NCBI GenBank assembly: GCA_009746045.1
Contig: RPFO01001338.1
Span: forward strand, 36,001-100,000
DNA: 64,000 nucleotides
Direction of reading: 5' to 3'
Source of the DNA: Mesostigma viride
Taxonomy: Eukaryota > Streptophyta > Mesostigmatophyceae > Mesostigmatales > Mesostigmataceae
Part shown: positions 4,835 to 59,170 of the stretch, one piece after another
Layout of the letters: every line of letters begins with the position of its first letter
How positions within the stretch are numbered: position 1 is the first letter of the stretch
Position numbers and translations under genes: made by a program
The notes under the pieces: model-generated
Told to the model about the DNA's origin: nothing
The model's database searches: none
The model's input: the letters and a program-made list of their open reading frames with translations, nothing else

Positions 4835-5009
4835 GTGAGTAATTGCTGAGGGCATGGCTCCTATCCCTTGATGAGTCTAGCGCCATGTACCACCCTCTAT
4901 GCCTGCATATAGGTGACGCATTGAAAATGCAAGCATCTTACTAGAAGTAGCACGGGCCTCCGAGGTGAGATTCTGCGCAGGCCTCATGATCCCAATGGAC
5001 CTGCGAAGC

Positions 5010-6000: not shown

Positions 6001-6052
6001 TGCCTGAAAAACGCGGTCGCTCAATGAAGGTGCACCACGCCGTCTTCTTCCA

Positions 6053-7553: not shown

Positions 7554-7559
7554 AAGCGC

Positions 7560-9321: not shown

Positions 9322-9392
9322 CGGTGTGTCGGATACTTTCGATTTCGGGTCCTTGCAGGGTCCTTGATTATTTCATGATGCTGATATTTACA

Positions 9393-25210: not shown

Positions 25211-25358
25211 GACAAACATATATTTTAAAAATATAATTACTTACAGCAGAGTGAAATCACTCAAACCAAAGCAAACGCCCAGCTATAAACCTATATACAG
25301 AGCCATGTCAAAGCTCTATACTACGATAAGACCAATGGAAACGCCTAACGGGAGGAAC

Positions 25359-36049: not shown

Positions 36050-38694
36050 ATACTTTTCGGGGCTCTGTGAAAAATACAACAAATCAATACAGTAACACAT
36101 CATTTGCATGGCCCTGCATGGGTAATATCTCGAGATATTAAGTGAGACAACTATGAACAAATATAGCTAGTAGACATAGGCAAACATATATATATATAAT
36201 CCCGCGCAGCTTGCTCCACTCCGTGCATCGCGCGCAGCTTGCTCCACTCCGTGCCGCGCTGCCCGTTGTGCCGGGCTGTTGTGCCGCCCCCTGGGACTGC
36301 GCTTCCTCTCGGCCCGCCCCCGGTCTCGCTGGGTCCCCTGCCGGGTGCCCACCGGGCCCCGGGGCCAGCTGCCTCCCCGACCCCTCGGCCGCCGCCCCCG
36401 GCCTCGTTGCCGGGGCCTGGGGTGGTCGCGGGCGCGCTGGCGAGTCCCCCTGGGCGGGGCGCCGGCGTTCTCGATCCCCCTCCGCTGGGGGTCTCCCCGG
36501 TGGGCACTGCCTCCTCCGTGGCCCCGGCGGGCATGCCGGGCGCTGGTCGGGTCGTGGTGCGCGCGCCTGCCGGCCCGGCTGGGGAGACGCCGCAGGCCCC
36601 ACGTCCTGCCTTTGCTGGCGCCGCTCCCCGCCACTCAGCGCCCGCCGACGGCCTTCACCGGTGTGCCGTGCTGCTTCCCACGGGGTCCCCGTGTGCTGGT
36701 GTGTTCCACAACCGTAACCTCCTCTGCCAGCACCTTCGCGCTGTGCACCCCGATCTCGGCGCGGCGGATCTGCAGGCCATGAGCTGTTACCGGTGCCCGG
36801 AAGCTCACTGCCAGCGGGTGTACTCCATTCACGGGCGCGCTCAGCACGCGCGCGCCTGTGTTGCTCCACGGCCCCTCAACCGGCCAGCAGTCCCGGCCCC
36901 CTCCCCCCTCCCGCCTCGGCTCCCACCGGCTCCCAGCCCCCGCCGCCCGACTACTCGGCCAGTTGGCGTTGGCTTGACACGGTTCCCTGGGATGCATGCG
37001 CCATCAACCCGACGTCTACCCTGACCGACCTCCCCCACCGCGCGCGTAGCCTTTTCGCGCAATGTGCATGCAATCGTTTCTCTCCGGCGCATGCACGCCG
37101 CTCCGGACGACCCGCTGGGCTTTAAACTGCACATGGTGACCCCCCGCCTGCTCCTCACCCCTCTCGGGCGTGGTGTGCGCGGCCTCCAGGGTGCGGTTAT
37201 TGCCCGTTGCCGACGCTTTCTGCAGGGGGACTGGGAGGGGCTGTTTGGCGTGCCGCCCCCGCGCACGGCCCGGCTGTCGGGGGAGGTCAACTTCGAGCGG
37301 GTGGCCGCCGACGTCATCCGCCTCGTCCGCGAGGGGCAGCTCAGCCGGGCCATGACCCGCTTGGAAATGGCCAAGCTGGCCCCCGCCAATGCGGCTACCC
37401 TGGCGGCCTTGGAGGCTCTTCACCCTGCGGAGCCCGGATTCCAGCTGCCCGTGCCGGACCCCCTGCCGGCCCCCCTCCGGCTGGACCGCGACTGCTTCCT
37501 GGAGGTGATGCGTGCGGTCCCGCGGGCTTCCTCTACCGGGCCGTCGGGCTGGCGCTACGAGCACTTGGAGGTCCTGGTGGGGCATGGGGGCGAGGACATT
37601 CTCTTTGACACCCTCATTGACCTGGCGGCTGGTCGCGTTCCTCCCGCTGCGCGCGAGTGGTTAGCGGGCGCTCGCCTCCTCGCTCTGCTCAAGGGTGTCT
37701 TGCCCCCCCCGAGGGCAAGGTGCGCCCGATCGCCTGCGGTGAGGTGCTCCGCAAGCTCGTGGGCAAAGTGATCTGCCGCCAAAAGGCGCCCGAGCTCCGT
37801 GCCTTTTTCTGCCCGCCCCTCGCAGCGGGTGAGACCTCGGTGGCGGCCCAGCTGGGGGTGACGACTCCAGGCGGGGCGGATAATCCTCATCCATTCGGTG
37901 CAGGCCTACCTCGAGGCCCACCCCACCCACGCTGTCGTCAAGGTCGACTGCCACAACGCGTTCAACAGTCTGTCCCGCGCCAGCATGTTTGCGGCCGTCA
38001 TGGAGTCCTTCGAGGACTTGTACGCTTGGACAGCCGTGTGCTACGGCCAGCCCGGCCAACTGGTTCACATCATGGAGGACGGCACTCGCGGCGGCCTGCT
38101 GTCGCGGTCGGGCACCCAGCAAGGGGACCCCCTGGGACCCCTGTACTTTGCCGCCCCCCTCCAGGGTTGCCTCCAAGCGGTCCATGCTGCCCACCCGGCG
38201 GTCGCTATTCAGGCCTACTTGGATGATATCTACCTTCTGGGCCCTGTGCCGGACACCACCGCGGCTCTGCTGGCACTGCAGACCGCGGTGGCCGACATCA
38301 ACCTCCAGTTGACCCTGGCCAAGTGCGCGGTGTACTCGCCCCAAGGTGATTGCTCCGGCTTTCCGCCCCAGCTCTTGGGCCGGGACGAGCGCCTCCATGG
38401 GTTGGATGTCCTCGGCGTTCCGGTTGGCGACCCCGCGTTTGTCATCGATGCTCTGCGGGCCGCCCTCGAGGCACGCACTGAGGTACTGCCCTTGATTGCG
38501 CGCCTTCATGATTCGCAGACCAAGGGTCTGCTTCTGTGGTTTTGCGCTCACCCTCGCGTCGTTCACTGGCTCCGGGGCGCTCTTCCGGCTCAGGTCCGGC
38601 TGGCCGCCGAGGGCCACGACGAACGCATCCAGTCGGCCTTGGCGCAGCTGGTCCCGGGCCCCGACCTCCCGCCACATGCTACAGGGGCAGCTCA

Positions 38695-38940
38695 CGTAGG
38701 TGGGACGCGAGTGGAACACTTTTCACCTAGGAGAGACACCAGGTTCAGGTACGTGGAACAGCCATGTTTCAGGTATTCATGTAAGTGGGACAGGGTAGCT
38801 TTCAAAATTCAGTGTGGTGGGACAGTTACATGTTCAAAATTCAGGTCGGTGGGACAGGCAAATTTTCAATTACATGTAGGTGGGACACATGTTCATACAC
38901 ATACAAAACACAGGTTGGTGGGACATGTCCCACCGAGTTG
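38695..38940. repeat. left subterminal GTGGGACA motif array
   Basis: At least six GTGGGACA or GTGGAACA copies, spaced about 25-45 bp and mostly preceded by TTCAGGT or TGTAGG. Likely transposase-binding sites by analogy with other DNA transposons. Confidence 0.7.
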
Positions 38941-39655
38941 TGTGGCATGGATGTGTAACACCTATAATGCGCTAGTTTCAGCTATACTGTCTGCACTCGT
39001 TTCAGTGCTATATAAACTGTGTCGGAAAGGTCACGGCAAGCCCTACCTAGCCTATTCAAGGTGTGCCAGAAATACGGCAGGCGGGTGCGATTATTAATGA
39101 CGCAACCGGCAACCCTAATACCTCCGTTTACAACATGATGGCCAGATATTAAAAACATGAAGGGCAGTTGGGCCCACAGGGAAAAGTCTACATCGCAACA
39201 AGGCACCATGCGACTCCGTAGTCAGCGATCACAAACGTTTGCTTCACCCTTTCCGTGCGCTTCTGCTCATGCTGTTTAGGGTACCTGCACATAAGAAACG
39301 TGCCAAGACACACAACCACACACCATAATAATGCATTACAAATGCGAAGTACAATGTTGTTGTTGTTGGTGGTGGTTGTTGTTGTGGTGGTGGTGGTGGT
39401 GGCGGCGGCGGCGGTACATGGTGGTGGTGGGGGGTGGGGGTTGGGGTGGGGGTGGGGGTGTGGGCCCGGTGTGGGGGTGTGGGGGGGTGCGTCCCTGTGT
39501 TGTGGTGCGTGTGCGTGTGACAGTGCATATGTACGCGTGATGTGTGATGGGTGATGTGTGATGTGCGATGTGTGATGGGTGATGTGTGATCGATGTGTGA
39601 TGTGTGATGTGTGTGTGCTCATACGCCTACTTATATGTTGGCCCATTTGATCATG
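38941..39655. other. inner left part of the 19-kb transposon
   Basis: No recognisable gene. Contains GTT/GGTGGT-rich low-complexity sequence (39350-39490) and GTGATGTGTGAT repeats (39535-39615), ending at the CACTA insertion point. Confidence 0.5.
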
Positions 39656-39722
39656 CACTATACTATAAACTTACGGCCCGTACACGTATACGGGCCCCGT
39701 ATACGGCCCGTAAACGTATACG

Positions 39723-40305
39723 GGATGACTGTAGGTGTAAGTTGGCGATGCCATGGTAACCGGAGACGTCCGTCCTATAGTCAGCAAAATTGGTGCGAGA
39801 GGTCCCCAGTTCGATTCCGGTCGGATTCATTTGCAGATCGCGTTTTCCACGTTTTCCGCGGCCCGGCACTGAACGCAAAGGTTTTCACCTTTGCGGAGTG
39901 CCTGATCAGAATATACGCTTGGCTGATTTCGTTAGTACCGGCTACGCCCCCTTCTAAAAAAGAAGGATTCAGCCGTGTTCAGCCCGTCTCACGGTGCGAG
40001 ACTGAACAAGTCTCGCGTGCAGACATGTGTGTAGTACTCCTACACACAGATCTCGAGTGATTTATCTAGTACCAAATCCGAAAGGCTTGCATCACTCCCC
40101 GGACAGGAGAACTTTTGCGGATGACTGTAGGTGTAAGTTGGCGATGCCATGGTAACCGGAGACGTCCGTCCTATAGTCAGCAAAATTGGTGCGAGAGGTC
40201 CCCAGTTCGATTCCGGTCGGATTCATTTGCAGATCGCGTTTTCCACGTTTTCCGCGGCCCGGCACTGAACGCAAAGGTTTTCACCTTTGCGGAGTGCCTG
40301 ATCAG
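39723..40305 (+). repeat. repeat dimer inside the CACTA end
   Basis: One 5'-shortened unit and one full unit of the ~390-bp repeat seen at 17936-18676, with the same linker. They lie between GTATACGGG and AGTATACGGG of the CACTA subterminal repeats. Confidence 0.8.
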
Positions 40306-40690
40306 AGTATACGGGCTCCGTATACGTTACGTAAACTTTACTTCAATATACGACAAAAAGTATACGGGCCGTAAAGTTTACGGCCCGTATACTTTTTGTC
40401 GTATACTTTAGTAAACTTTACGGCCCGTATACTTTTTGTCGTATACTTTAGTAAAGTTTACTTTAGTATACGAAAAAAAGTATACGGGCCGTAAAAATTA
40501 CTACCGTATACTTTTTGTCGTATACTTTAGTAAATTTTACTTTAGTATACGACAAAAAGTATACGGGCCGTAAACTTTACGGCCCGTATACTTTGTGTCG
40601 TATGCTGCAGTAAATTTACTACCGTAAACGACACAAAGTATACGGGCCGTAAAATTTACGGCAAGTATACTTTGTGTCGTATGCCTTACA
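40306..40690. repeat. left CACTA subterminal palindromic repeats
   Basis: Repeated GTATACGGGCCGTAAA and TTTACGGCCCGTATAC in both orientations, with CTTTTTGTCGTATAC spacers. Extensive cruciform potential. Confidence 0.85.
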
Positions 40691-40799
40691 GGCCATTTTT
40701 TACGTCCACTTGGCGTCCACTAGAATTAATGTCACGCTACGTACACGCCGCGTACACCGAACCGAGCCTAGTACGGGGCCGTAACCGAAACAGTCCCCG

Positions 40800-41995
40800 G
40801 TTAGGGTCTTGTTGTTGTTGTTGTTGTTGTTGTGTCCCACGCCGCACATGGGCAGCAGAGAATCTATACTGGCCGATACGGTCTTGTACTCGTCCCGTTC
40901 TAGGTACGGCACAGAGCGGTTGCGTGTTGTTCTTGTTCTTGTTCTTGTTCTTGTTCTTGTTGTTGGTTCCCACGGAAGTTGTTGTTGTTGTTGTTGTGTC
41001 CCACGCCGCGGAAGTGCAGCAGAGATTCTATATTTGCCGAGGGCCGGATAGAACGGTTGCGTGTACGGGACTGGTTTCAGGAACGCCCCCGTACCTGTGC
41101 TAGTCGAGTTTGCAGGTGGGGAGTTGTGAACCGCCGCGCCGGGCGAGAACGATTTTTCGAATTTATCAACGATCACAAGCGTCTGCCCTTGCAACGCTTG
41201 CCTCATAATTAGCCGGCCATGCCGATTTGCAGTCGCCAGCCGGTCAGTAGTGGTGAAAGAATATTTGGACTAAAAAAGAATCGCGGGCTTATTGCGCCTG
41301 AAGAAGAAGAAAGCCAAAGGCGCACTAGGACAAGCCTTTGGAGCCGCAGTTTAGCATGATTGAGTTATCATTTTTCCAGCCATCTACAGCGCTCTCTCCG
41401 ATACAGCTAGCCTACCATGGCGTAGTCCTTAGCCAGCTACATCAATTTGTTCGTCTTTGTTCCTAAAGGAAATTTAAATTTCGTGACATCGTGCGCATGC
41501 GGCATTTCACGAAGCTACTGCAATCGCATTACGCTAAACAAAGTAAGCCAATGTTCCTAATCAGCGCCCGCATATGCATGCCACGTTTAGTCGCAAGGAG
41601 TCGCATCGGCTATCTGTCTCACACTTTGTTAATCATCGCTCATTTGCTTACTGCTCCATGAGGGGAGCTGTGTACTACTGATTCTCTATCTTTTATGTAT
41701 GGCAGTCGACTTAATGTCTTTTGCCATTCTTCAGGTTTCCACTCGTTCCCGTCGCTTGACAGGCTACTAAAGATGCCTTTGAGTTACACGACATTTTCGG
41801 CCTCGTTTACTCTACACCCGGCACATCTGGGCTACTCATTATGTGCCGATGTCCACCGTAAGTTATTCAAGTTTTTTGCCTTGCATGGTTGTCAGTTTTG
41901 CTGGGCAATTTCTCCCCACCGAGATCTCTTTTTTCGCTTTGGCAACGCCATGCTATTGTATGGTATGCCTTCGTGCCATGCTAGTGGGTAGGTAG
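40800..41995. other. CACTA interior, no gene assigned
   Basis: (TTG)n at 40810-40830 and 40975-40998 and (TTCTTG)n at 40930-40960 open artefactual Leu- or Asn-rich frames. The rest is unassigned. Confidence 0.5.
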
Positions 41996-41999
41996 GTTC

Positions 42000-43325
42000 A
42001 CGTGCTTGTTCGTTGTCAAGAGAGGAATGCGTGTGGGTGGGTGGGTGAACGCACTTTTTCCCTGTCAAGGGAGGGATGCATGTGGGGTGGGTGAGTGCAA
42101 GTGCTTTTTCCTGTCAAAGGAGGGATGCATGTGGGGTGGGTGAGTGCACGTGCTTGTTCCTTGTCAAGGGAGGGATGCACGTGGGGTGGGTGGTTGCACG
42201 TGCTTTTTCCTTGTCAAAGGAGGGATGCATGTGGGGTGGGTGAGTGCACGCGCTTGTTCCTTGTCGAGGGATGCATGTGGGGTGGGTGGGTGCACGCGCT
42301 TGTTCCTTGTCAAGGGAGGGGTGCATGTGCAGTAGGTGGGTGCACGTGCTTGTTTCTTGTAAAGGGAGGACTGCATGTGGGGTGGGTGGCTGCATGCGCT
42401 TGTTCCTTGTCAAGGGAGGGATGCATGTGGGGTGGGTGGGTGCATGCGCTTGTTCCTTGTCGAGGGAGGGATGCATGTGGGGTGGGTGGGTGCACGTGCT
42501 TGTTCCTTATCAAGGGAGGGATGCTTGTGCATTAGGTGGGTTCACGTGCTTGTTTCTTGTAAAGGGATGGATGCATGTGGGGTGGGTGGGTACACATGCT
42601 TGTTCCTTGTCAAGGGAGGGATGCATGCGCGGTGGGTAGGTGCATGCTCTTGTTCCTTGTCAAGGTAGAGATGCATGTGGGTGGGTGGGTGCATGAAATT
42701 GTTCCTTGTCAAGGGAGGGACGCAGGTGGGGTGGGTGGGTGCACATGCTTCTTCCTTGTCAAGGGAGGGATGCATGCACGGTGGGTGGGTGCATGTGTGT
42801 GTTCTTTATCAAGGGAGGGATGCATTGCAGTAGGTGGGCCCACATGCTTGTTTCTTGTAAAGGGAGGGGTGCATGTGGGGTGGGTGGGTGCACGTGCTTG
42901 TTCCTTATCAAGGGAGGGATGCTTGTGCATGAGGTGGGTTCACGTGCTTGTTTCTTGTAAAGGGAGGGATGCATGTGGGGTGGGTGGGTACACATGCTTG
43001 TTCCTTGTCAAGGGAGGGATGCATGCCCGGTGGGTAGGTGCATGCTCTTGTTCCTTGTCAAGGTAGAGATGCATGTGGGTGGGTGGGTGCATGAAATTGT
43101 TCCTTGTCAAGGGAGGGACGCAGGTGGGGTGGGTGCACATGCTTCTTCCTTGTCAAGGGAGGGATGCATGCGCGGTGGGTGGGTGCATGTGTGTGTTCTT
43201 TATCAAGGGAGGGATGCATTGCAGTAGGTGGGCCCACATGCTTGTTTCTTGTAAAGGGAGGGGTGCATGTGGGGTGGGTGGGTGCATGCGCTTGTTCCTT
43301 GTCGAGGGAGAGATGCATGTGGGCC
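42000..43325. repeat. ~50-bp minisatellite
   Basis: About 25 units of GTCAAGGGAGGGATGCATGT, GGGGTGGGTGGGTGCA and CGTGCTTGTTCCTT. Cys/Val/Gly-rich ORFs on the plus strand are artefacts. Confidence 0.9.
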
Positions 43326-45010
43326 GCTAGCTTCCCTCCCCTCCCCTCCCTTCTTAGCTTCCCTCCTTCCTTGCATTACTTAAGTTCCTATGGCTTCCTT
43401 CCCCTCCCCTCCCATATCCCATAGCTTAATGCCCTTCCCTTTCCTCCCTCTCCCTTTGTAGCTTTCCTCCCCTCCCTTGCTTAGCTTCCCTCCCTCGTTG
43501 CATTACCTAAGTTCCTTTAGCTTCCTTCCTCTCCCCTCCCATCCCTGAGCTTCCCTCCCCTTTCGTCCCTCTCCCTTCTAAGTAGCTTTCCTCCCCTTCC
43601 CTTTGTTAGCTTACCTCCTTCCTTGCATTACCTAAGTTCCTTTAGCTTCCTTCCCCTCCCCTCCCATGTCCCATAGCTTAATGCCCTCCCCTTTCGTCCC
43701 TCTCCCTTAGTAGCTTTCCTCCCCTTCCCTTTCTTAGCTTCCCTCCTTCCTTGCAGCACCTAAGATCCTTTAGCTTCCTTCCCCTCCCCTCCCATCCCTG
43801 AGCTTCCCTCCCCTTTCGTCCCTCTCCCTTAGTAGCTTTCCTCCCCTTCCCTTTCTTAGTTTCCCTCCTTCCTTGCATTACCTAAGTTCCTTTAGCTTCC
43901 TTCCTCTCCCCTCCCATCCCTTAGCTTCCCTCCCCTTTCCTCCCTCTCCCTTCTAAGTAGCTTTCCTCCCCTTCCCTTTCTTAGCTTGGGGGCTTCCTTG
44001 CATTACCGAAGTTCCTTTAGCTTCCTTCCCCTCCCCTCCCATCTTAGCTTCCCTCCCCTTTCCTCCCTCTCCCTTAGTAACTTTCCTCCCCTTCCCTTTC
44101 TTAGCTTCCCTCCTTCCTTGCATTACCTAAGTTCCTTTAGCTTCCTTCCCCTCCCCTCCCATATCCCATAGCTTAATGCCCTTCCCTTTCGTCCCTCTCC
44201 CTTAGTAGCTTTCCTCCCCTTCCCTTTCTTAGTTTCCCTCCTTCCTTGCATTACCTAAGTTCCTTTAGCTTCCTTCCTCTCCCCTCCCATCCCTTAGCTT
44301 CCCTCCCCTTTCCTCCCTCTCCCTTCTAAGTAGCTTTCCTCCCCTTCCCTTTCTTAGCTTGGGGGCTTCCTTGCATTACCGAAGTTCCTTTAGCTTCCTT
44401 CCCCTTCCCTCCCATATCCCATAGCTTAATGCCCTTCCCTTTCCTCCCTCTCCCTTAGTAGCTTTCCTCCCCTTCCCTTTCTTAGTTTCCCTCCTTCCTT
44501 GCATTACCTAAGTTCCTTTAGCTTCCTTCCTCTCCCCTCCCATCCCTTAGCTTCCCTCCCTTTCCTCCCTCTCCCTTCTAAGTAGCTTTCCTCCCCTTCC
44601 CTTTCTTAGCTTGGGGGCTTCCTTGCATTACCGAAGTTCCTTTAGCTTCCTTCCCCTCCCCTCCCATCTTAGCTTCCCTCCCCTTTCCTCCCTCTCCCTT
44701 AGTAACTTTCCTCCCCTTCCCTTTCTTAGCTTCCCTCCTTCCTTGCATTACCTAAGTTCCTTTAGCTTCCTTCCCCTCCCCTCCCATATCCCATAGCTTA
44801 ATGCCCTTCCCTTTCCTCCCTCTCCCTTAGTAGCTTTCCTCCCCTCACTTTCTTAGCTTCCCTCCTTCCTTGCATTACCTAAGTTCCTTTAGCTTCCTTC
44901 CCCTCCCCTTTCATATCCCATAGCTTAATGCCCGTAGCTTTCCTCCCTCTCCCTTAGTAGCTTTCCTCCCCTCCCTTGCTTAGCTTCCCTCCCTCGTTGC
45001 ATTACCTAAG
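43326..45010. repeat. 1.7-kb polypyrimidine minisatellite
   Basis: Long units made of CTTCCTCCCCTTCCC, TAGCTTCCCTCC and TTGCATTACCTAAGTTCC. The plus strand is overwhelmingly C/T, so it could form triplex DNA. Confidence 0.9.
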
Positions 45011-45600
45011 TTCCTTTGGCTACTTGGGAGCGGCGGGAGCGATGCCGACGAAAGGGCTGGCTGCGGCAAGAACGTCGTCCAGCGACCGGGTTTCTGGGGC
45101 GGCAGGTGTTGTTGGGGCCTCCATAGCTACGGGGAAGATGTCGAATGCTGGGGCGGGGGGCGCAGGCGTGCTATTCACGAAGGGAATGCCGCCATATCGA
45201 GTCGAAAATAGCGATATCTGCTGGGCAGGCCGAGGTCGAGAACGTACGAAATCGGGGACGATAGCTGCCGGAAATTATACCAGCGTGTTTGTCATCAGAA
45301 GACGAGTCGAATGCAACAAACCCGACTAAATTTCATGGCCTGAGTCGAAAGTTATGAGCATTCTCGGCAGCCATAGCTCGGCATATTTTCGCGTACGTCG
45401 TGGAGCTGATGCTCTGGGAAATTTGAATGATTGATAAGGGTTAATTCAACTAGTGTGTTTCTTAGTAGTATAATGTGTTTCTTCATTAATTTGAATGATT
45501 GATAATTGATTAATTAATTTGAATTATTGCCACATGATGTTTCCATGAAGTCAAATGACAACGCAAATCACAATACACTAGGTTGGACAAATCACAAGGT
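45011..45600. other. CACTA interior, possible short coding fragment
   Basis: A GC-rich open stretch at 45011-45329 reads Gly/Ala-rich residues then VENSDICWAGRGRERTK. I do not recognise it, and its start lies in the satellite. Confidence 0.25.
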
Positions 45601-45958
45601 TACGGCCCGTATACTTGTCCAGTATACTGGCCGTAAACTTTTACTACCGTATACTTTTTCTAGTATACTTGCTGTAAAATTTACTACCGTATACTTTTTC
45701 TAGTATACTGGCCGTAAAATTTACTACCGTAAATTTTTTCTCGTATACTGGCCGTAAAATTTACTACCGTAAATTTTTTCTCGTATACTGGCCGTAAAAT
45801 TTACTACCGTAAACTTTACTGCCGTATACGAGAAAAAGTATACGGTAGTAAATTTTACGGCCAGTATACGAGTGGTAAGTATATGCGTACGAACGCAAAA
45901 TTTACGGCCCGTAAAAATTTCCGTATACGTGTACGGGCCGTAAATTTATAGTATAGTG
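45601..45958. repeat. right CACTA subterminal palindromic repeats
   Basis: TACTACCGTATAC, TTTTTCTAGTATAC and TGGCCGTAAAATTTACTACC units mirror the left end and finish at the inverted terminus. Confidence 0.85.
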
Positions 45959-47190
45959 TGCCGACGTGACCTGTCGCATGTGTGCGGTAGACATATGTAC
46001 TGCATGCTACCTAGTCACACATGGCATGGGTTTGCAGAGTTACATACAGAGTGTACATTCTTGTCACATAAATGGTCCAGTATATCTTGGAGCCAAATGC
46101 ATGCAACCCATGCAACGATACTTACTTGACCACCATGCGCCAGTGGTTGTCATACTTCTTTGCATACGGGTCCTGTGGGTCAGGGTTTCCGTAGTACGTC
46201 AGGCCGTCACCATACAAGGTGAAAACCTGGTATTTGGCCCAGTCCGCCGTTGTCAGCACCTCGGCATGCTTTGCCACAGTGCGCTGTGGCGGAAGCTCGA
46301 GAGGAGGGAGAGAAGGCTTGGACTTTTTCTTGGCTGGGCGGGTGGCCTGATCCGTTGGTGGTGGTGCTCCCGCGGCTGGGTTGCCGACCCCTGCTGCCCC
46401 CACCTGGTCGGCTGCCCCCCCCTTCCCACCACGTCAGCTGCCTCACATCCGGCCTTGTCCCAGGTTGCCTTCACTGCTCCAGCCTTCTTGCATCATGAGC
46501 AATATCTTTCAAATAAAGGGGGGGCAGCTGGGATATCGCCAAGAAATGAGCAAGACTGCTAGTTTCCAACCCTTACATAATTCATGATCACCCGTTGCTG
46601 GGTGGTTACGCTGCATCATTTGGCTGCATGCAACGAAGAAGACCATTACATACTTTCGGCTCTTCCACGTCAAATTCTCACGGGGCCGGGCTGCATGCAT
46701 ACTCATGAAACAATCGAAACTCAGCAAACTAGTGCGACATGTACAAAATGCAGCAGGAAAAATACAGACAATTATGATGGAAATAAACTTACGCGCACAA
46801 GCGCGCGGTTGACCATGTACCCCTTGCTCCGATACTCGCGAATCTCAGTGGCCACCTCTTTCTCCACCAAGGGAAACTTGGCCGCACTCTGGGCTCCAAC
46901 ACAGCTAAAAAGCGGTGAAAAAGGGGTGAATTTTTCACCCCTTTTTCACCCCCGCTAAAAAGGGGTGAAAATTTTTTCACCCCTTTTTCACCCCTTTTTA
47001 GCGGTTAATTTTGCGGCTAATCACCGGCAAATTTTTGGGGGTGAATTTTTCACCCCTTTTTCACCCCTTTTTCACCGGTGAAAAAGGGGTAAAAAAAAGG
47101 GGTGAAAAAGGGGTGAATTTTTCACCCCTTTTTCACCGGTTTTTCACCCCTTTTTCACCGGTGAAAAAGGGGTGAAAAAATATTCACCCC

Positions 47191-47850
47191 CTGTTCACAG
47201 ATTTTATATATGAATTGATTAATTGTATATATGAATTAATTACAATCATGTTGATGATCATCATGATCATGGCCTAGCGTAGGTTAGTGTAGGTTAGATA
47301 GACCGTAGGGGTTTACCATTCCACTTGGGGTTTATGCTACGTGATGGCCCACACATGGCCGGACTGATGTTTTCTCTTTCCTAGGGAAATTTCCAGCACG
47401 TTAATTTAATTTAATTTAATTTTAATCATGATCATCATGATCATCATGAACTTGTTCATGCAATGCCAATTTCATTAAAAGTGACCATAAAGATCAACGA
47501 ATACGATGCAAGAATCACACACTTGCTAGCTAGACTTAAAAAATGCATTGCAGATAGTGAAGGAAATCAAGCTCATCATGGTATAACCGATGCGCGGTGG
47601 GCGTCATCATGATGTAGAATAAGTAACTAACTCTATCTAGGTAGAATGGTCTCCAAGCTTTTTCTATGTGTCCTGCCCGATGCTTGATGGCTCATAAGCT
47701 TCTTGCAAAAGATCACTTCTTCAGTGCATCTGCAACCGCCATTCAACGGATGACACATCCACATCGCAACAAGCAAGCTTCAAATTAGTACACCATTTAA
47801 GTGACACAACAGGTAAGGGAACCCATGGATTAATTAAGCGAGCAAGTCAA
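47191..47850. other. interior of the 3.4-kb element
   Basis: AT-rich with ATGATCATCATGATCATG palindromic runs (47240-47460). No gene seen. Confidence 0.5.
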
Positions 47851-47854
47851 TCAC

Positions 47855-48460
47855 GGCTCATTAAATTCACGAGCAAGCATGCAAGGAAGCAAGGCCGGAC
47901 TAACCGAGGAAGCAAGGGACAAATGGAATGCAGCAAGCAACCACGCGAGGCAGCAAGGACTAATCAACAAGTTAGTTGTCTCACTTAACAGGGGTCTGTT
48001 TCAATTCATGAAGTTCTCTAGCATGCAGGGAAGCAACGGCCTAACCAAGTAGGCAAGGTCGTATCAAAGGAAGCAAGGGAGTAATTATATTCAGCAACTG
48101 CAAGTGTGCAAGGAAGAGTGGCTTACAAAGGAAGCAAGGGCCTAAAAAAGGAAGCAAGGGACTAATTAGATTCAGCAAGCAAGCAATTGCAAGCATGCAA
48201 GGAAGAGTGGCTAACAAAGGAAGCAAGGGCCTAACAAAGGAAGCAAGGTTCAACAAGCAAGTATAATTGCAAGCATTCAAGGAAGAGAGAGGCTAACAAA
48301 GGAAGCAAGGGCCTAGCAAAGGAAGCAAGGACCTAGCAAAGGAAGCAAGGGCCTAACAAAGGAAGCAAGCGCCTAAGAAAGGAAGCAAGGGACTGAATTA
48401 AATTCAGCAAGCAAGTAATGGCAAGCATTCAAGGAAGAGAGTGGCTAACAAAGGGTAATT
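47855..48460. repeat. GGAAGCAAGG tandem repeat
   Basis: Irregular units built from AAAGGAAGCAAGGGCCTAAC and AAGCAAGCAATTGCAAGC. Confidence 0.8.
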
Positions 48461-48890
48461 ATTAACATGCGACAGTTGCTATGTTGCAGGTAACAGTTAC
48501 TACGTGACAGTTACTACAAGGCAGTTGCATTGTGACAGTTGTAATATGGCAATCGCATTGTTACATTTGCTATGTGAGCATTACTACGTCGCACTTGCAT
48601 TGTGACAGTTGCTATATTGCATGTGACAGTGGTAACGTGACAGTCGCATCGTGACAGTTGCTACGTGACAGTTGGGTAGTAGAACGTTGCCTTGTGACAG
48701 TTGCTATGTTGCGAGAAACAGTTGCTACGTGACAGTTACTACAAGGCAGTTGCATTGTGACAGGTGTAATATGGCAGTCGCATTGTGACAGTTGCTATGT
48801 GAGTATTACTACCTGACACTTGCATTGTGACAGTTGCTGTATTGCACGTGACAGGTGTAATGTCACAGTCCCTACGTGGTTGGTGATGGT
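48461..48890. repeat. GTGACAGTTGC tandem repeat
   Basis: Irregular units of about 17-20 bp, GTGACAGTTGCTATGT and variants. Confidence 0.8.
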
Positions 48891-49944
48891 GGCCATGTTA
48901 CAGTGGGTCAACTGTGAAATCCATTGACAGGAGATCATTACAAACGGACGCGCCTGCCGAAAATGTCCAGTGGCCCCAAAAGCAGAAACGCAAAATAGCG
49001 GCAAAAGTGCCGCCAAACAGAAGTCCAGGCTTTTGCCGCTTCAGTGGAAGATAAAGGCACTCACGTCGACACCGACGCGGCAAACAGTTGTTGCTGCCTG
49101 CCTGCCCTCCAACTCTGCTCCGCTCGCTTGCCTGGCCAACGGGGACGAAACGCAAGCTCGGGAAACGTCCAGGGCGAAACAGCGTAAAGGCCAAGGCGTC
49201 AAACACCTCACAGCCACATAGCAAACGATACACAGTTAACCGTCAACAGTTAGCCGTAGCTGCAAAAAGCGAGGAAAGTTGGGAAGAGCTGCTCGTTTGA
49301 AAAGAAGCGTGTCGGTCCCGTAAACCCCCAAGCCATCGGTTTGCAGGTTGCGACCATATCAACACGGCGGAAGAGATTATCGCCTCGCCGCTTCTTTGAG
49401 GCGCCTTTTTACCTTGCCTGGAAGACGTGGGTGAAAGGCAGGCACAGCAAAAGCAAGACGGGTATAACACATGGCGAAAACGAAAGGCAGGCGCAACACT
49501 GACACATTCGTCCGTTGCTGCCCGTGAAAAGGAAAAAAAGGCATTCGCGACTTCAGGCACCATACTTAGGGAATAACTGGGATGTTCGCAGCTTTACATA
49601 ACACTGAAAACCCATGCTTGCAAAACAGGCGCCCCGTTATCCCCTTCATAGCTGGAAAGGGTAAGTCCGAGCGCAGGCAACGGTAAGATACAGGATTTTG
49701 AATTCCCGCAGCCGGTTAGTGAAAGCACTGGGCGTCGTCGGCCCGCCAGCGTCCCCGGCCCCGGTGCCTAACCCCGTTACCCGTTGTAGGCAACTAGGCA
49801 TCTAGCGTCTCCCCAACCTCGCGCCGAATTCAGCACACTGGGTAGTTCACGCCATTCCGAGGCCGCCACGCGCCTCTTCCGGCCAGACCGCAAAATGCCC
49901 CACCCCCGCTCCAGTGTCTACTTGCATTCGAGCAAGCTCGCAAA
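48891..49944. other. interior of the 3.4-kb element, no gene assigned
   Basis: GC-richer sequence with short frames on both strands (for example plus 49088-49300, with KRKLGKRPGRNSVKAK, a basic stretch). Nothing is recognisable as a transposase. Confidence 0.35.
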
Positions 49945-50883
49945 AACACCGGGGGTGAAAAACAGGGTAAAAAATAATTCACCTGATACCCCCCAAGAAA
50001 AAAAAATTACCCTATGGGGGTGAATATTTTTTCATCCCTTTTTCACCGGTGAAAAAGGGGTGAATTTTTCACCCCTTTTTCACCCCCTTTTCACCCCTTT
50101 TTATCCGGGGGGCTAAAAATTTTACCCCATGGTGAAAAAGGGGTGAAAAATTCACCCCCCGAGAAAAAAAATTCACCCCTTTTTCACCCCTTTTTAACCA
50201 GGGGGCTAAAAATTCACCGCTTTTTCTCGTTTTTCACCCCTTTTTCACCGCTTTTTAGCTGTGTTGGACGGAGCCCAGAGTGCCGTAGTCGGGTTTCTGA
50301 CACGACTTGGGCACTTCTTCCCCGCTAGCTTGGGGTTGTCTGCTGCAGCCTTGATGGCCGCCTCCTCTGTGAGCATGCGGTTGAAGGTTGAAATCGGGAT
50401 GGGGGGGTCGCTAGTTTTGCAGAATTGGCGCTGCGACAATCCGCTCTCGTGAAAGGCGTCCAGAATCTTCCGCTTGGTGCGCATATCCCTGAACATGTAA
50501 TTTCATCTCGCGGCGCACGGCTTACTTTTTCGCCCTTGTCAGCTGGTTTGTCGGAGTTAACCAGCCCCGCTTCTGATGCCGTGGTTAGCCCTGCCTGTCG
50601 TAGTTGCTTTTCCCTCGTCCTCGGTGACATGCGGCACAAGAAAGCTTGCAGGTCCAGACCTGCGGGGGCCGGGCATCACGCGAGCCGCCGACAGCTGGCC
50701 CTGCGGATGATGGACTGCACTCCGGCTCGCCTGACCCGCTCGCCATAGCGGCTCACCGTATATAGTTAGAGACCTCAGACCACGGATGCAGTCACGTGTT
50801 CAATAATTAGTTAATTGATCATTAACTGATGCAGCTGACTAGCACTCTCTAACAAAAGTCACGTGCCAACGTACTGTACGTAG

Positions 50884-51873
50884 CCAGCGTGCAGTGTTTT
50901 TTTTAAGGTTTTCGTTACTAGTGGCGCTAGGCCACTTGTGGCGTTTCGAACTATGAAAACTTCAGTTTACTCGGCCAATGTGTGGCTTTAAGCCAATTAA
51001 AATTGGGCTTGGCACGGCCACGTGTGGCGGGCTGGCTTTTTGGTGCAGCAAATGACCCTACCGGCAGCGGGGTCAGCGCGGCGCGGCGCCGTACTGGCAT
51101 TCCAAGTTCAAAGTAGTTCAGAACAGTATGTTTAATTATCTTAAGTTCAAACTAGTAGAATTTATTAGAATCATTCACGCCTTAAGTTGGGTTCACGCCT
51201 GAAGTTGGGTTGACCAAAAACCTCGAACCCAACTTAAGGCGTGAATGCCTGTACACAAGGCGGGCGAGCGTCTCCGTCTCAGGCATCGGCGCCGGGCGTA
51301 CTTGGTAAATTAACAACAACGATTACCACTACAGCCACTGCTTAACAAAACGATTACTGAAGTGCCGAAAGTCGAAACACATAGTCAATGCAATGCAGTA
51401 CAGTACTGTATGGCTGGCGAGTGACTGGAACTGAGGCGCCAGCCGCCAGGCCGCCAGCCAGCTGAAGCCAGAAAATGCACACAAGCTGCAGTCTGCACAG
51501 TGCACTCTGGTCTCTGGCAGCGGGCCACTTGCCACTTGGCACTTGGCCGGGCTCTACGTACATGCACTATGCAGTCAGTAAGTCAGTCAGTCATAGTAAT
51601 ACTCATAGTAGTTCTAGTACTAGGGAGGCTTGTGGCGGAACGCCGGCCGGAAGACCGGCTGACACCGCCAATTGTGGCGTAGCCTGTACTAGAGTGAACT
51701 TCAGGCACGGCCACCCTGTGGCGAAACGAAACTACAAAGTAGAACAGCACGGCCAAATTGTGGCTTCTTGGGTGCCCTGTCCAAGTGGGTGGCACCGCCA
51801 CATTTTGCCAAAAAAAGTGCCACACCGCCACATTTGGCGGTGTATCGCCACTAAAAAAAACACTGCCAGCGTG
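50884..51873. mobile_element. non-autonomous hAT transposon
   Basis: The body is 50892-51865 (974 bp). The ends are CAGTGTTTTTTTTA and its exact inverse, 14 bp. They are flanked by an 8-bp duplication CCAGCGTG at 50884-50891 and 51866-51873. An 8-bp duplication with CAGTG ends is diagnostic of hAT. GTGGCG/CGCCAC motifs cluster near both ends. No transposase ORF. Confidence 0.9.
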
Positions 51874-51905
51874 TGCCTCTCTCACCTCCTTACAGTATCA
51901 ACTAT

Positions 51906-54900
51906 ATTAAAAACCATCGGGCATCCTGTGGTCCGTACGCCGTAACTTTCCGTACATTTCAGTGGATAACTCGTGATCGACGGGTGTCCTTTTCGCCTTT
52001 TACCGTTGGGCACAAGTCGTCGGAATTTTGAGATCGTACAGGCTTCCGTGCGTGGCTGGATCGAAGACGGCGTATCTTGAGCGGAGGACGAAAGGCGTTT
52101 GTTCAGTGAGACGCTATTGGCGTTCACTCGCTCGCATCTTTAATGGCTTTAAAGTCGTCTCGCGACATTTTGACGTTAGCGAGTCGATCGAGCTTGACTG
52201 GCGCGTAGTTGGTCGAACTTTTGCGACTTGCCACCTGTCGACTCATCGAAACTGGGTCGCCTACTAGAGTGACGGTCGGCTTGACGGCTTTCGTCTTTTC
52301 GCCGTTGCTCTCGCCGTGTTCGACTTTCCACCTTTTTCGACTTTCTACCTGTCGGAATGACGAAACTGCGTTAGCGGCCGGACAGGTTCGCCTGAAGTAA
52401 TTCCCCTGCACGTGGCGGCTGCCCATATACCAACCTACGACGATCGTCGTAGGTTGGTACATCCAAACTGCGTCGTCTACTGAAGTGACGGTCCAAACTC
52501 CAAAGACTGACGGGCGAAGATACTTAAACTTTTGTTGCTGTTAAAATTTTCCGTCTTGGATCCATGCAGGTGCTTAAAAGGGACCAATAGACGTTAGGTT
52601 TGAAACTGACCGAAGTTTCTAAGTCGTCGAAAGTTGCTAATTGGGATTTTGCAACCGACTGTATCCAACTATATTAAAAACCATCGGGCATATCCAACTA
52701 TATTTAAAACCATCGGGCATCCTGTGGCGGATCTCCGTAGAATTGTCGTACTTTTCAGGAGCTCCTCGTGGTCGACGTGTGTCCTTGGCGCCGTTTCCCG
52801 TTGGGCGCAAGTAGACGGACTTTGGAGATCGTGGAGGCTTCCGTATGTGGTTGGGCCGAAGACGCCGTATCTCGGGCGGCGGACGGAGCGACTTTGTTCT
52901 CAGTGGCGTTCACTCGCTCGCATCTTTAATGGCTTTAAAGTCGTCTCGCGACATTTTGACGTTAGCGACTCGATCGAGCTTGACTGGCGGGTACTCGGTC
53001 GAACTCTTGAGACTTGCCACCTGTCGGCTGACCGAAACTGGGTCGCCTACTAGAGTGACGGTCGGCTTGACGGCTTTCGTCTTTTCGCTTGCCACCTGTC
53101 GGCTTACCGAAAATAGGTCGCCTACTAGCGTGACGGTCAGCTTGACGGACGAAAGCCGTCAAGCCTGACGGTCGGCTGGACGGACGAAAGCCGTCAAGCC
53201 CTGCATGTACTAAAGACCATCGGGCACCCTGTGGCCCGTATGCCGTAACTTTCCGTACATTTCAGTGGATAACTCGTGATCGACGGGTGTCCTTTTCGCC
53301 TTTTACCGTTGGGCACAAGTCGTCGGAATTTGGAGATCGTACAGGCTTCCGTGCGTGGCTGGATCGAAGACGGCGTATCTTGAGCGGAGGACGAAAGGCG
53401 TTTGTTCAGTGAGACGCTGTTGTATAGCAGGGATTAACTACACTGTACTGGTTATCAACTAGAAGACGCCGTATCTCCAATAGCATTCGGCAAGGCTATA
53501 TATAGGTGGCGGATCTCCGTACTTTTCGCTCCTCGTCGTCGACCCCTGTCCTCAGTTCGCGCCGCGTTCACTCGCTCGCATCTTTAAATGGCTTTCAAGT
53601 CGTCTCGCGACATTATTGTTGACGTTAGCGCCTCGAGCGAGCTTGCGAAAACCGCGGGGGGCGGGAGGGGCGGGGGGGCGGGGGGAGGAACTCCGGGTGG
53701 GTGGGGCGGGGGGCAGGGGGTTGGGGGAAGGGGGGGGGGGCGGCGGGGGGGGGAGGAACTCCGGGTGGGTGGGGGGCGGGGGGGGGGGGGGGGAAGGGGC
53801 GCGGGGGGGGGCGGGGGGGGGGGGGGCGAGGAGCTCCGGGTGGGTGGGGGGGGGGGGGGAGGAACTCCGGGTGGGTGGGGCGGGGGGGCAGGGGGGGGGG
53901 AAGGGGAGGGGGGGGGCGGCGGGGGGGGGGAGGAACTCCGGGTGGGTGGGGGGCGGGGGGGCGGGGTGGGGAAGGGGGCGCGGGGGCGGGGGGGGGGGGG
54001 GGAGGAACTCCGGGTGGGTGGGGGAGCGGGGGGGCGGGGGATCCCGCAGACTCTGGCGTCTTGCTCACTCAGGAGGGCGGGGAGCCCTGCGACCTCGCCC
54101 GGCCGGGGCGGACCGTCTTAATGTCCTCGGGGGGGGAGGCGGGGGAACCTCCGGGTGGCGGGTGGGGGGCGCGGGGGCCTTGCGACCTCGCCGTCTCACT
54201 CAGGCGGGGAGGCATCCTGTGGCGGATCTTCATACTTTTCCGGTCTTTTTCAGGGGTCCTCGTGGTCGACGCCTATCCTTCGCGCCACGCCTTTTCGGGG
54301 GGGGCGGGGGGCGCATCATGCCGGCCGGCTGAGGGGGGAGAGCGGGGGGGGGGGGGTACCGACCTCCGGGTGGGTGGGGGGGCGAGTGAGGGGGCGGGGG
54401 ATCCCGCAGACTCTGGCGTTTCGCTGAGGAGGGCGGGGGCCTTGCGACCTCGCCGTCTCACTCAAGCGGGGAGGCATCCTGTGGCGGATCTTCGTACTTT
54501 TCCTGGGCCGGTCGGCGGGGGGCGTATCATGGCTGAGGGGGGAGGGGGGGGGAACCTCCGGGTGGGTGAGTGGGGGGATCCCGCAGACTCTGGCGTCGTC
54601 TCGCTCAGGAGGGTGGGGGGCCTCATTGCGACCTCAATACATGTAAAGACCATCGGCTTGCTGAGGGGGGGGGGGGTTGCGACCTCGCCTGGGGCGGGGC
54701 GTCTCACTGAGGCGGCAAATGGCCTCCGGGTGGGTGGAAACTGGGAAGGGCGGACGGACTGCGGTGTTACAGGCCCACACAGGGTGTCGTTATTTGTCTC
54801 CCGACCTTTTCCTTTTTTCAGCCCCCTTCATAAGCTTCAGTTGACTTGAATCGAGTTGCCATGTGTCGGCGGACGGATCGAAACTCGACTACTAGAGTTA

Positions 54901-54961
54901 CGGTCGGCTTTGCGCCTTCTTTTGGGGGGGATGCGAAGCATCCCCCCCCCCTTAAGCTTGT
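51906..54961 (-). repeat. ~3.05-kb long inverted repeat, right copy
   Basis: Reverse complement of 9393-12446, with the G-rich third at 53640-54720. Near-identical apart from G-run lengths and a few indels (for example ACTC near 54395). At its AT-rich end the sequence continues AATATAGTTGATA, where the left copy is cut by the 193-bp foldback element. It lies inside the 19-kb transposon, so it arrived there after that element. Confidence 0.85.
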
Positions 54962-55059
54962 ACCATGTTAATTACGCCGGCAGAAGGGGAATTCATAAGG
55001 TGGGGCGCCTACAGTGCCACGTGTACTGATGTACGGTTATTGTGGATGCGACAGCCCAC

Positions 55060-55500
55060 CGACCAACACAGCAAGGTGGGCCACCTGTTCCACGTACTCA
55101 GATTTTGGAAGCTGAGTCAGTCCCACCAACGCAGCAACTCAACGCAGCAAGGTGGGGCACCTGTTCCACGTACTCAGATTTTGGATGGGACTGTTCCACC
55201 TACGCAGCAAGGTGGGGCACCTGTTCCTCGTACTCAGATTTTGGATGGGACTGTTCCACATACGCAGCAAGGTGGGCCACATGTTCCACGTACTCGGATT
55301 TTGGATGGGACTGTCCCACCTACGCGGCAAGGTGGGGCACCTGTTCCACGTACTCAGATTGTGGTTGAGACCGTCCCACAGGCGCATACAGCCCACTTCC
55401 ACGGCTACGTGGTACGCGAACCGTCCCACTTTCACGGCTAAGTGGTACGCGAACCGTCCCACTTTCACGGCTACGTAGTACGCAAACGTCCCACTTCCAC
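55060..55500. repeat. ~60-bp tandem repeat with GTTCCAC motif
   Basis: About five units of CAAGGTGGGGCACCTGTTCC, ACGTACTCAGATTTTGGATG and GGACTGTTCCACCTACGCAG. They carry the same GTGGGAC/GTTCCAC core as the subterminal arrays of the 19-kb transposon. Confidence 0.8.
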
Positions 55501-55719
55501 GTGGTGTGGGAACAGCCCAAGTACCCGTGAGGCGGTGTACTGTACTGTGTACATATACACACAAGTGGTCACATATCACTACCAAGACCTATATTTCACT
55601 ACACCGCACATACGTATTGTATATAATTCGACGTGGCTTTATTATCAGTATCGTTAACTGCATAAATACTTGCACTACGTGAGCAGCTAGCGGTACAATA
55701 TAGCTTGTTTTTCTTCTTG

Positions 55720-56247
55720 AAACAATGGATTAAAGCGCTTCATCATGGTTCAGAGGCAGATTCGGAGGCTGCTTATGAGGCAGCTTCCGGGGCCTCTACA
55801 CCGGTGAAGGTCCAGCCCAGCGTTGATGTTGATGATGAGTTGAACTCCACCCCAGACCTAGCGTCCTCTACAAATGATGAGGACATAAGTACCAAGGCAT
55901 CGCCTTCAGGTCTTACAGTGATCCAGGAAGAACAACCAGCTTCTGCATCCTTGGCTTCTGAGACTCACAACCGGCAAGGGAATGAAGCGGAGGCCGTTTT
56001 GGCAAGAACAGATTCCGGGGGGTCTTCAGATTCCGGGGATTCGGAGAAGTTTTGGAAGCTGGTGCGCACCCAGAAAGGCATTCTCTTACCGACCAAGAAG
56101 CCGGGGCAGTTTCTACACGTCGCAGCTGGTTCAAGCTCTGAGCCCAGCGATTCAAGTTCTGAGGATAATGAAGGGAATTCCAGTGACGAAGAGTGGTCCG
56201 TGGACGTCAGCTCTGGTCAACCCGATGTCGGTTCTTTGCAAATATGA
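55720..56247 (+). CDS. acidic Ser/Glu/Asp-rich exon, unrecognised
   Basis: An open frame from about 55705 to the TGA at 56245 has no Met, so it would be a terminal exon. A possible acceptor is TGGTTCAG at about 55752. It reads Ser/Asp/Glu-rich disordered sequence such as SSTNDEDISTKASPS and GSSDSGDSEKFWKLVRTQKG, ending DEEWSVDVSSGQPDVG. It belongs to the right arm of the 19-kb transposon and could be an accessory protein of it. No family recognised. Confidence 0.35.
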   Translation, partial: KQWIKALHHGSEADSEAAYEAASGASTPVKVQPSVDVDDELNSTPDLASSTNDEDISTKASPSGLTVIQEEQPASASLASETHNRQGNEAEAVLARTDSGGSSDSGDSEKFWKLVRTQKGILLPTKKPGQFLHVAAGSSSEPSDSSSEDNEGNSSDEEWSVDVSSGQPDVGSLQI

Positions 56248-57080
56248 CTGAACACAGGTGCGTGATTCAGAATCCTTCCAATCACGAATCCCGTTGCTGG
56301 GTTCCCCATGATGGCCATTGTGCTGATGCTTAAAGGGTTTTCGCATGAGTAAATGTGAGGCCATGTGCATTATAACCGCGTTGTTCAGTTTGGGGTAATT
56401 CCAAGTGTGGGCACAAAGTTTGCGCATTCATTCATTGTGTTCATGTAGTTCTGTTTTGTGCAACCATGCACTACATGCAGGCTGCAGGCTAGGCGTATTG
56501 TGTTGATGGACAGTTTTTTGCAAGCACGATCGAATGCGAGGCCTTGTGAATTTTAATACCTGCGTGGACGTCATAGGCAATCATGCATACATGGGCGTGT
56601 GCATAATAAAAATGCTGTCAATTTTCACAACCATACACGTGCAGGCACACACATGGCCGTGTGGATGATGTGAAATTTTTTGCCACCATGTATATGCATG
56701 GCCATGAGGTGCGGCATGGTTATTCATGATTCCTTACTTGAAAATCTGGCACCCTTTTTACACCATTACAACAACCATGGATGCATTCTCTTGCCCACAT
56801 CTTGCTAGCACGGTAATTGTTTGAGTCAATCTTTTATGATCCTAATCCAAAGCTTCCGAGTTATGACGTGGTTGTACATGTGCATCACTTGGATTATGGC
56901 GATTGCAGACCCAGTCATCAAGTTTCGCACGTACGAGCGCTTGGCTGACCTGGAGCCTGTTGTCTTGTACATGATTGCCCGAATTCTCCCGATTTCTGGC
57001 CTGCGCAGGTTGTCTCCTTGATGATGGCGGTGGCGACTGCACCACGATGTCATTTCTTATCGTGGTGTTGTTATGTTGTT
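56248..57080. other. right arm of the 19-kb transposon, possible coding fragment
   Basis: Around 56826-56920 one frame reads SIFYDPNPKLPSYDVVVHV then HHLDYGDCRPS before a stop, possibly a decayed exon. Otherwise no signal. Confidence 0.25.
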
Positions 57081-57084
57081 GTTA

Positions 57085-57352
57085 TATGGTGGGGGTGGGG
57101 GTGGGGGTGGGGTGGGGTGGGGGTGGGGGTGGGGTGGGGGTGGGGGTGGGGGTGGGGGTGGGGTGGGGGTGGGGGTGGGGTGGGGTGGGGTGGGGTGGGG
57201 GTGGGGGTGGGGTGGGGGTGGGGTGGGGGTGGGGGTGGGGTGGGTGGGGGTGGGGTGGGGGTGGGAAGTGGGGTGAAGTGGGGTGAAGTGGGGTGAAGTG
57301 GGGTGAAGTGGGGTGAAGTGGGGTGAAGTGGGGTGAAGTGGGGGGGGGGGGG
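57085..57352. repeat. GGGGTGGGGGTGG tract
   Basis: Almost pure G/T repeat, then GGGGTGAAGT x8 and a G-run. Strong quadruplex potential; all derived ORFs are artefacts. Confidence 0.95.
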
Positions 57353-57594
57353 GTTCTAACCCCACCCCCATGCATCATATAACAATAACAATGTTGTCAT
57401 ACAAATCTGCAAGAACTACCATATTTGCACTTGATTGATTTAATTTCCAGCGTATTATCGGTTGCACACAGATCAAGTGTCCCTACGCCATGAGCAAACG
57501 TGCAGAATAGGTAGCATGCCCCATAGGAGTAATAGGGACATGTATGTATAACATATGTAGGAGTATGACACATAGAGCCCATATGTGCGTAGCC

Positions 57595-57820
57595 ACTACA
57601 TTCAGGAAGGTGGGACACATAGAAACATACAGTTAGGTGGGACACAGCTTCAAGTTCGGGTAGGTGAGACAGACCTGTATCACAAATGCCGGTAGGTGGG
57701 ACACCATGTTTTTCCAAATTCAACAAGGTGGGACATAATTTCAGTTAGGTGGGACACCTGAACATGTCCCGCTTTGCTGAATTTGTCCCACCTACCGGAG
57801 TTGGAACACTGTCCCACCTA
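57595..57820. repeat. right subterminal GTGGGACA motif array
   Basis: At least six GGTGGGACA or GTCCCACC copies leading into the right terminus, mirroring 38695-38940. Confidence 0.75.
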
Positions 57821-59170
57821 CGTGAGCTGCCCCTGTATTCGCATTGCCTCCCTGCCTGCACGGATGGGTGGCTGCGGTCTGACTCGTGCCGCCCGGCTGG
57901 CCCCAGCAGCATTTTTGGGCTCCGTCGCTCAGTCGTGGGCGGAAAGCTGCCGGCTCCTGCCCCTTTTGGCTACGGCAGCGCCTGACCTCCTGGACCCCAG
58001 CAGCCCTTTGCCCTTCGTCACCGCCATCCAGGAGGCCTATGCTGAGATCCAGCAGGCCTGTTCTCCCGTCCGTGCCGCTCAGGCGGTACAGCGCCACCTC
58101 CCTCGCGGCACTCCCTCGGTCGCCTCCGTTCAATCTCCCGCCGCATTCCCTGCTCGCGTCATCGATAAACACCAGAAAACCTACGCGGGTATTCTGCACA
58201 CGGCTGATTGGATTGCTCTTTTCGCGGACCTCAACGCCCAGGGACGTGCGTGGCTGTTCTCGCTTTCCTTGCGGAGTGTGGGCTCGGCGTACCTTCGTGC
58301 TCTTCCCATGGCCCCCCCATTCGCCTTGGCTCCCAGCCACTACTCGGTGGCGCTCCGGCACCAGCTATTTGCCCCGCAGCCTCTTGTTCCGGCCGGGCGG
58401 CCTTGTGGTAGCTGTGGGCAGCCGCTGGATCCCACGGGGACTCACTACCTTGCCTGCATGGGGGCCAACAGAATCAGAATTGGTATTTGTATTTGCACAC
58501 TGTCCTCCTGACGGTGGTGCTCGCCATGATTCGGTCGGTTTTCCCCCACGCGAACATCCGGTCCGAGGATGCGGATGGCGCTGCCTTCTATTCCCCCAAC
58601 CACCGGCCTGACATCGTGGTGCTGGACTTTGAGGGGGGTGGCCGGCATCTGCTTATCGACGTTTCCGTGGCGCGGCCCTTGGCTCTTAGCCACGTGGCTG
58701 GGGCCTCCCTCACGGCAGGTTACACGGCGGACCGGGCGGAGCGGGCCAAGCTCCTGGCCTACGGCGACGTCGGGCACCATCGTGTGGTGCCCTTTGTCCT
58801 GGAGGAGTTTGGGGCCATGGGGCCCCTGACCTCCGCCTTCTTCAAGGAGTGTTGCCGGCTCCGGGAGGACCGGCTGGACCTGGAGGGCCAGCGGGCCCCA
58901 TGGTCGGCGCGGACCTGGACGTCATATTGGCGTCAGCGCTTGTCGGTGGCGCTGACTCGGGCCATGGCTGACATCATGCTCCGCCGTACGCGGGCTGATT
59001 TTGCGGTGCAGCAGGGCTATTAGGTTCCTCCCGTTAGGAGTTTCCATTGGTCTTATCGTAGTATAGAGATTTGACATGGCTCTGTATAGAGGTTTATAGC
59101 TGGGCGTTTGCTTTGGTTTGAGTGATTTCACTCTGCTGTAAGTAATTATATTTTTAATATATATAATCCC

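Follow-up and report, generated by a model that had tools for sequence, protein, structure and literature searches.

The closest described relatives of the element reported here belong to the pogo group. One survey, in its excerpted text, gives pogo elements a length of 1.20-5.20 kb, treats DD35D as the mark of Passer and Fot/Fot-like elements, and includes a single green algal species among the hosts of Fot-like pogo elements (PMC7386202), and another, also as excerpted, records no Tc1/mariner elements in Chlorophyta and urges the study of pogo in early plants (PMC7325037). Among the papers that literature searches listed, none has pogo elements of Mesostigma as the subject of its title. Here, we analysed a 64,000-nucleotide stretch of the streptophyte alga Mesostigma viride (assembly GCA_009746045.1, contig RPFO01001338.1, positions 36,001 to 100,000 of the forward strand; this whole stretch is called the window, and positions count from its first letter), which carries a transposon copy with target-site duplications at 38680-57837. 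Judged by its sequence features, the element represents a family new to the pogo superfamily (IS630-Tc1-mariner) and not CACTA, because it combines a DDE_1 domain, a DDxD triad, and a TA duplication, next to a helix-turn-helix (HTH) region whose score lies just below the Pfam cutoff. With a probability of about 0.92, the copy in the window is a non-autonomous member of this family with an internal deletion, and the full copies would mobilise this short form in trans.

CACTA elements of the En/Spm type have subterminal motif arrays that also occur near the promoter, two products, and abundant deletion derivatives, and their protein TNPA joins the ends and regulates the element's promoters. The Mesostigma element is alike in array layout, two frames, and deletion derivatives, but unlike in termini, duplication, and transposase domain. 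In the Ac/Ds and P/KP derivatives, one internal deletion removes the catalytic part, the ends are kept, and amplification presumably takes place in trans; the Mesostigma short form is alike in its deletion pattern, but the superfamily differs. KP of the P element is a truncated repressor. The Tec and TBE elements of ciliates, as excerpts of a survey describe them, are like ours in being Tc1/mariner-group elements with several open reading frames (ORFs), one of them on the other strand, and unlike it in having a DD34E transposase and being ciliate-specific, Tec also carrying a site-specific recombinase (PMC7325037).

The outline of the window copy is given by its ends and by an empty site elsewhere in the window:

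38680..38681, unstranded: TA target-site duplication, left (window letters and empty-site alignment)
38682..38706, plus strand: 25-bp terminal inverted repeat (TIR), left (exact match)
57811..57835, minus strand: 25-bp TIR, right (exact match)
57836..57837, unstranded: TA target-site duplication, right (window letters and empty-site alignment)
25218..28722, minus strand: paralogous retrotransposon copy with the empty site (single TA near 26546)

The terminus CAGGGGCAGCTCACGTAGGTGGGAC is exact at both ends; the window has no third one even when 3 mismatches are tolerated, and none turned up in 100 shuffles. When the two flanks are joined, they match 28722-25218 at 99.4% identity over 3510 bases, across the junction, and the empty site is one TA. 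A preliminary description of this DNA had claimed exact 25-bp TIRs, a TA duplication with boundaries defined to the base, a paralogous copy near 26545 with a single TA, and a length of about 5.4 kb without later insertions, and all of this was borne out, the length being 5420 bp with the first boundaries or about 5403 bp with refined boundaries and duplicated target bases taken into account. Its account of a 19-kb transposon has to be replaced, because the window copy is a non-autonomous internal-deletion derivative of about 5.4 kb interrupted by four later insertions, and the full element measures 9.6 kb.

We searched the genome of M. viride (439.9 Mb) and found the first 20 bases of the terminus exactly 64 and 63 times on the two strands (reversed control, 0), and 66 and 67 termini when up to 3 mismatches were allowed. 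Of the 127 places, 100 were listed, and these form at least 42 convergent pairs with no more than 40 kb between partners: 22 copies fetched whole, the window pair, and 19 others. The fetched copies were picked by terminus spacing (20 short) or by transposase matches (2 full). TA stands on both sides of all 22 fetched copies, with differing flanks, and likewise beside the window pair. The window copy and the 22 fetched ones start at either end with CAGGGG, rather than CACTA or CACTG; the fetched copies share the same 20-bp ends, although the full ones may differ by one base at positions 21-25. The inverted terminus pairs with TA flanks that the preliminary description had named as a check are there, and the differing duplication lengths or termini that would have spoken against it did not appear. 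Twenty of the 42 pairs span 5.2-5.8 kb, and all of them were fetched (5.26-5.74 kb); they are 97.4-100% alike over aligned bases, and the identical 30-bp internal-deletion junction is found in 20/20 short copies and in neither of the two full ones. The deletion occurred at a 3-bp GCA microhomology and reaches from the intron after the HTH exon to a C-terminal exon, so that the catalytic exons are gone. No relatives of the size of miniature inverted-repeat transposable elements occur among the 42 pairs listed, the shortest of which is 5263 bp.

The full copies were reached through a search with C-terminal sequence of the related gene model P0004, which led to places inside longer terminus pairs. 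Two of them (L039 and L040; 9618 and 9614 bp) are TA-flanked and 99.46% identical, and they equal the short form plus about 4.2 kb. At positions 3075-8005, the two copies encode the same 748-aa stretch of transposase, modelled in six exons, with four of the five introns GT-AG and one GC-AG; exon 6 was cut in the model before its frame becomes uncertain, and further C-terminal exons, common to full and short forms, follow it. In Pfam, this transposase gave solely DDE_1 (29.4 bits; cutoff 22), HTH_Tnp_Tc5 just below its cutoff, and a sub-threshold DDE_3, with no CACTA domain. The catalytic triad is D282, D404, and D440, with 35 residues separating D404 from D440 (DD35D), which is not the DD34D or DD34E of mariner/Tc1 proper, and all three aspartates are invariant when this family is aligned with a metagenome protein and two further Mesostigma families. 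EukProt jgi/Mesvir1 proteins contain long stretches at 93-100% identity to the element's exons. Residues 1-185 of DDE exon 2 recur at 96% identity or more in 13 places among 57 matches; in 11 places examined, seven terminus pairs enclose a near-full exon 2 and four a partial or eroded one. The HTH piece has no Pfam relative and no significant match in the Protein Data Bank (PDB; best E 0.93), and the 519-aa transposase piece has no significant PDB relative either (best E 0.9). The preliminary suggestion of a new family is upheld.

Compared with the DD35D groups of pogo (Fot/Fot-like and Passer) as excerpted in two surveys, the element is like them in its DDE_1 domain, DD35D, a TIR of at most 40 bp, and TA, has an HTH_Tnp_Tc5-type region that scores just below cutoff, and is unlike them in its dense motif arrays and in its early-branching streptophyte host (PMC7386202, PMC7325037). 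Its 9.6 kb exceeds the 1.2-5.2 kb of the one survey, a range that is not definitional, almost twofold (PMC7386202). The same survey gives pogo elements one or two ORFs, as transposases (PMC7386202), whereas the Mesostigma element has an acidic second frame on the opposite strand.

The window copy retains the following parts of the genes and arrays:

38785..38933, plus strand: subterminal GTGGGACA array, left
39191..39283, minus strand: modelled C-terminal tail of the transposase, in the last exon of its gene
46125..46486, minus strand: C-terminal transposase exon after the deletion junction
46793..46888, minus strand: 3' part of the transposase HTH exon, which nested element B splits
50281..50493, minus strand: 5' part of the transposase HTH exon
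55060..55500, unstranded: array of GTGGGAC/GTGGAAC repeats in the region separating the divergent genes (also from the motif distribution on the 9.6-kb copy)
55732..56244, plus strand: second gene (acidic protein), residues 3-173 open
57610..57817, plus strand, last two sites on the minus strand: subterminal GTGGGACA array, right

The HTH exon is thus present but split, and no DDE or catalytic-exon match was found in the window. A whole-frame Pfam scan of 45000-57900 in two of the six frames gave no match; the window copy has no catalytic exons. The pogo affinity proposed earlier stands, the full copies encoding a pogo-type transposase; of the HTH gene proposed earlier, the exon is there, but the window itself lacks a DDE match.

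Several points weigh against this reading of the element. The HTH_Tnp_Tc5 score in the family itself is 19.6 bits, below the cutoff of 22.2. The L039 exons downstream of exon 6 do not form one open frame (runs of G), so the C-terminus of the transposase is uncertain, and the left terminus of L039 is one base off the 25-bp repeat. The splicing is modelled; EukProt gene models P0003 and P0004 back two joins, and gene model P0001 joins the HTH exon elsewhere, to C-terminal exons. The placement comes from domains, triad, and TA and applies at the level of the superfamily, and the element is known from its DNA sequence.

Mesostigma has two further families besides the present one (family A). Family C (L043, L044, and L045), a diverged sister family, is 54-55% identical to family A in DDE exon 2 and up to 71% in another exon, its DDE_1 (26.0 bits) and HTH_Tnp_Tc5 (23.4 bits) are both above cutoff, and it has a GTGGGAC array between divergent genes; its left homology starts with CAGGGGCAGC in L044, without a preceding TA, and with TA-CAAGGGC in L043. 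Family B (L041 and L042) has the left end TA-CAGGGTCAGCTCAC, DD35D, a different end motif, and an exon with DDE_1 at 28.5 bits. Its subterminal motif is ACTAACGAAGCGAATTC, and its TIR start is similar to that of family A. Perhaps the subterminal motif and the DNA-binding domain coevolve by family. The only homolog found outside Mesostigma is the metagenome protein P0005, with 32% identity over 55% of the query. P0005 is a DDE_1 protein of 450 aa with 36 residues between its last two aspartates by hand count, and its C-terminal extension ends near HNHWVLV, which resembles YDNHWRMVV of the Mesostigma element. At G000:C335:4460540-4462014, two partial transposase copies stand in opposite orientations, a possible palindromic rearrangement.

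In the mechanism that we consider most likely, transposase from the full copies would act in trans on the ends common to both forms and would cut and paste full and short forms into TA; it would thereby have multiplied the deletion derivative in recent times, much as Ac amplifies Ds. The copies are nearly identical, which suggests recent movement of the short form by the long one; the family is young and probably active.

In the window, GTGGGACA occurs 17 times against 2.56 expected (largest shuffle, 8), and in a full copy 28 of 29 GTGG[GA]AC sites fall into three clusters, seven at the left end, nine at the right end, and 12 between the genes (200 first-order Markov sequences: mean 3.9, largest 10). 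The arrays called CACTA-like in the preliminary description are real, but the likeness is architectural only, the transposase being of the pogo type. Either the transposase or the acidic product may bind the repeated AGGTAGGTGGGACA-like motif, which stands at the two ends and between the divergent genes; such binding would join the ends and allow the element to control its own promoters. Tentatively, and less likely than not, a pogo lineage in an early-branching streptophyte alga might have convergently built a CACTA-like machine, in which a divergent gene supplies an acidic partner dedicated to the transposase, the motif array that marks the transposon ends also governs both, and one protein couples end-synapsis to self-regulation.

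It is also possible, if doubtful, that the second ORF is a chance or decaying frame in a single-gene pogo element with long regulatory repeats. The full copies have an ATG-started acidic frame of 173 aa (pI 4.2) on the strand opposite the transposase, and family C has an ATG-started one of 170 aa (pI 4.7) in the same place and orientation, although the two families are only 54-55% identical in DDE exon 2; this speaks against such a reading. However, the second protein has no Pfam match, and no second gene was recognised among frames of at least 70 aa in family B. Homology of the A and C proteins is unsupported, as their local score of 32 was equalled by 670 of 1000 shuffles; a pairwise BLASTP comparison matched them over LPxxxPGQF at E 0.04. 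Two family C copies differ at 5/510 positions in the second frame vs 15/651 in flanking noncoding DNA (Fisher p 0.11, not significant), and purifying selection on the frame is not established, the dN/dS of 0.46 resting on 5 changes. On the other side, 100% identity over residues 1-173 is seen in seven places, one of which is longer by three bases, and the contigs concerned hold DDE exons as well; the frame is intact from its ATG in 2/2 full copies but in 0/20 short copies, of which 14 shift at once, one has no ATG, and five shift later. When the ATG is disregarded, residues 3-173 are open in many short copies.

It seems unlikely that the short copies make a truncated repressor from the HTH and C-terminal exons, so that the deletion form would be a regulator. 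The HTH sub-frame from MRTKRK is open in 18/20 short copies and the join in P0001 would suit such a product, but stops lie within the full exon 1 frame in 20/20, and the openness of the sub-frame is weak evidence because near-identity reflects recency. Descent from a true CACTA (En/Spm-type) element, to which the arrays at both ends and between two divergent genes and the second open frame might point, is very improbable given the CAGGGG termini, solely TA in 22/22 copies, transposase domains (DDE_1 and HTH_Tnp_Tc5) that contradict it, and the presence, nested inside, of CACTA-like insertions A and B with CACT termini and 2-3-bp duplications.

The insertions that interrupt the window copy are as follows:

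39656..45958, unstranded: nested insertion A (CACTA-like), CACTATAC termini, 38-bp TIR at 97%, 2-bp duplication TG
46885..50282, unstranded: nested insertion B (CACTA-like), CACTCTGGGCTC termini, 3-bp duplication CCG
50892..51865, unstranded: nested insertion C1 (hAT-like), CAGTGTTTTTTTTAA termini, 8-bp duplication CCAGCGTG
51898..54960, unstranded: nested insertion C2 (Helitron-like), between A and T, no duplication, 3' hairpin

Insertion A (6.3 kb) has internal GTATACGGCCC repeats and two large minisatellites, with a 50-bp unit at 41986-43323 and a 128-bp unit at 43340-45021. Insertion B has CACTCTGGG ends and dense inverted subterminal repeats TTTTTCACCCC. A second copy of C2, 98.7% identical, lies at 9392-12446; the 5' ends differ, and the 3' hairpin of the Helitron-like copies is GGGGGGATGC-GAA-GCATCCCCCC.

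On our reading, the DNA flanking the window copy looks like a retrotransposon with a reverse-transcriptase-like frame, its paralogue at 25218-28722 being inverted. Inside the retrotransposon copy with the empty site, there is a tandem duplication of about 820 bp (24388-25211 and 25212-26030; 98.7%). Elsewhere in the window, two 414-bp direct repeats (34210-34623 and 35638-36051), 99.8% identical and 1.0 kb apart, resemble the long terminal repeats of a very short element.

A streptophyte alga thus carries a pogo family with full and deleted forms, the full one, at 9.6 kb, being nearly twice the upper size in the excerpted survey (PMC7386202). With its two forms, the family offers a natural Ac/Ds-like pair for asking if elements other than CACTA can evolve motif arrays together with a second protein. 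It could also become a mutagenesis tool for Mesostigma.

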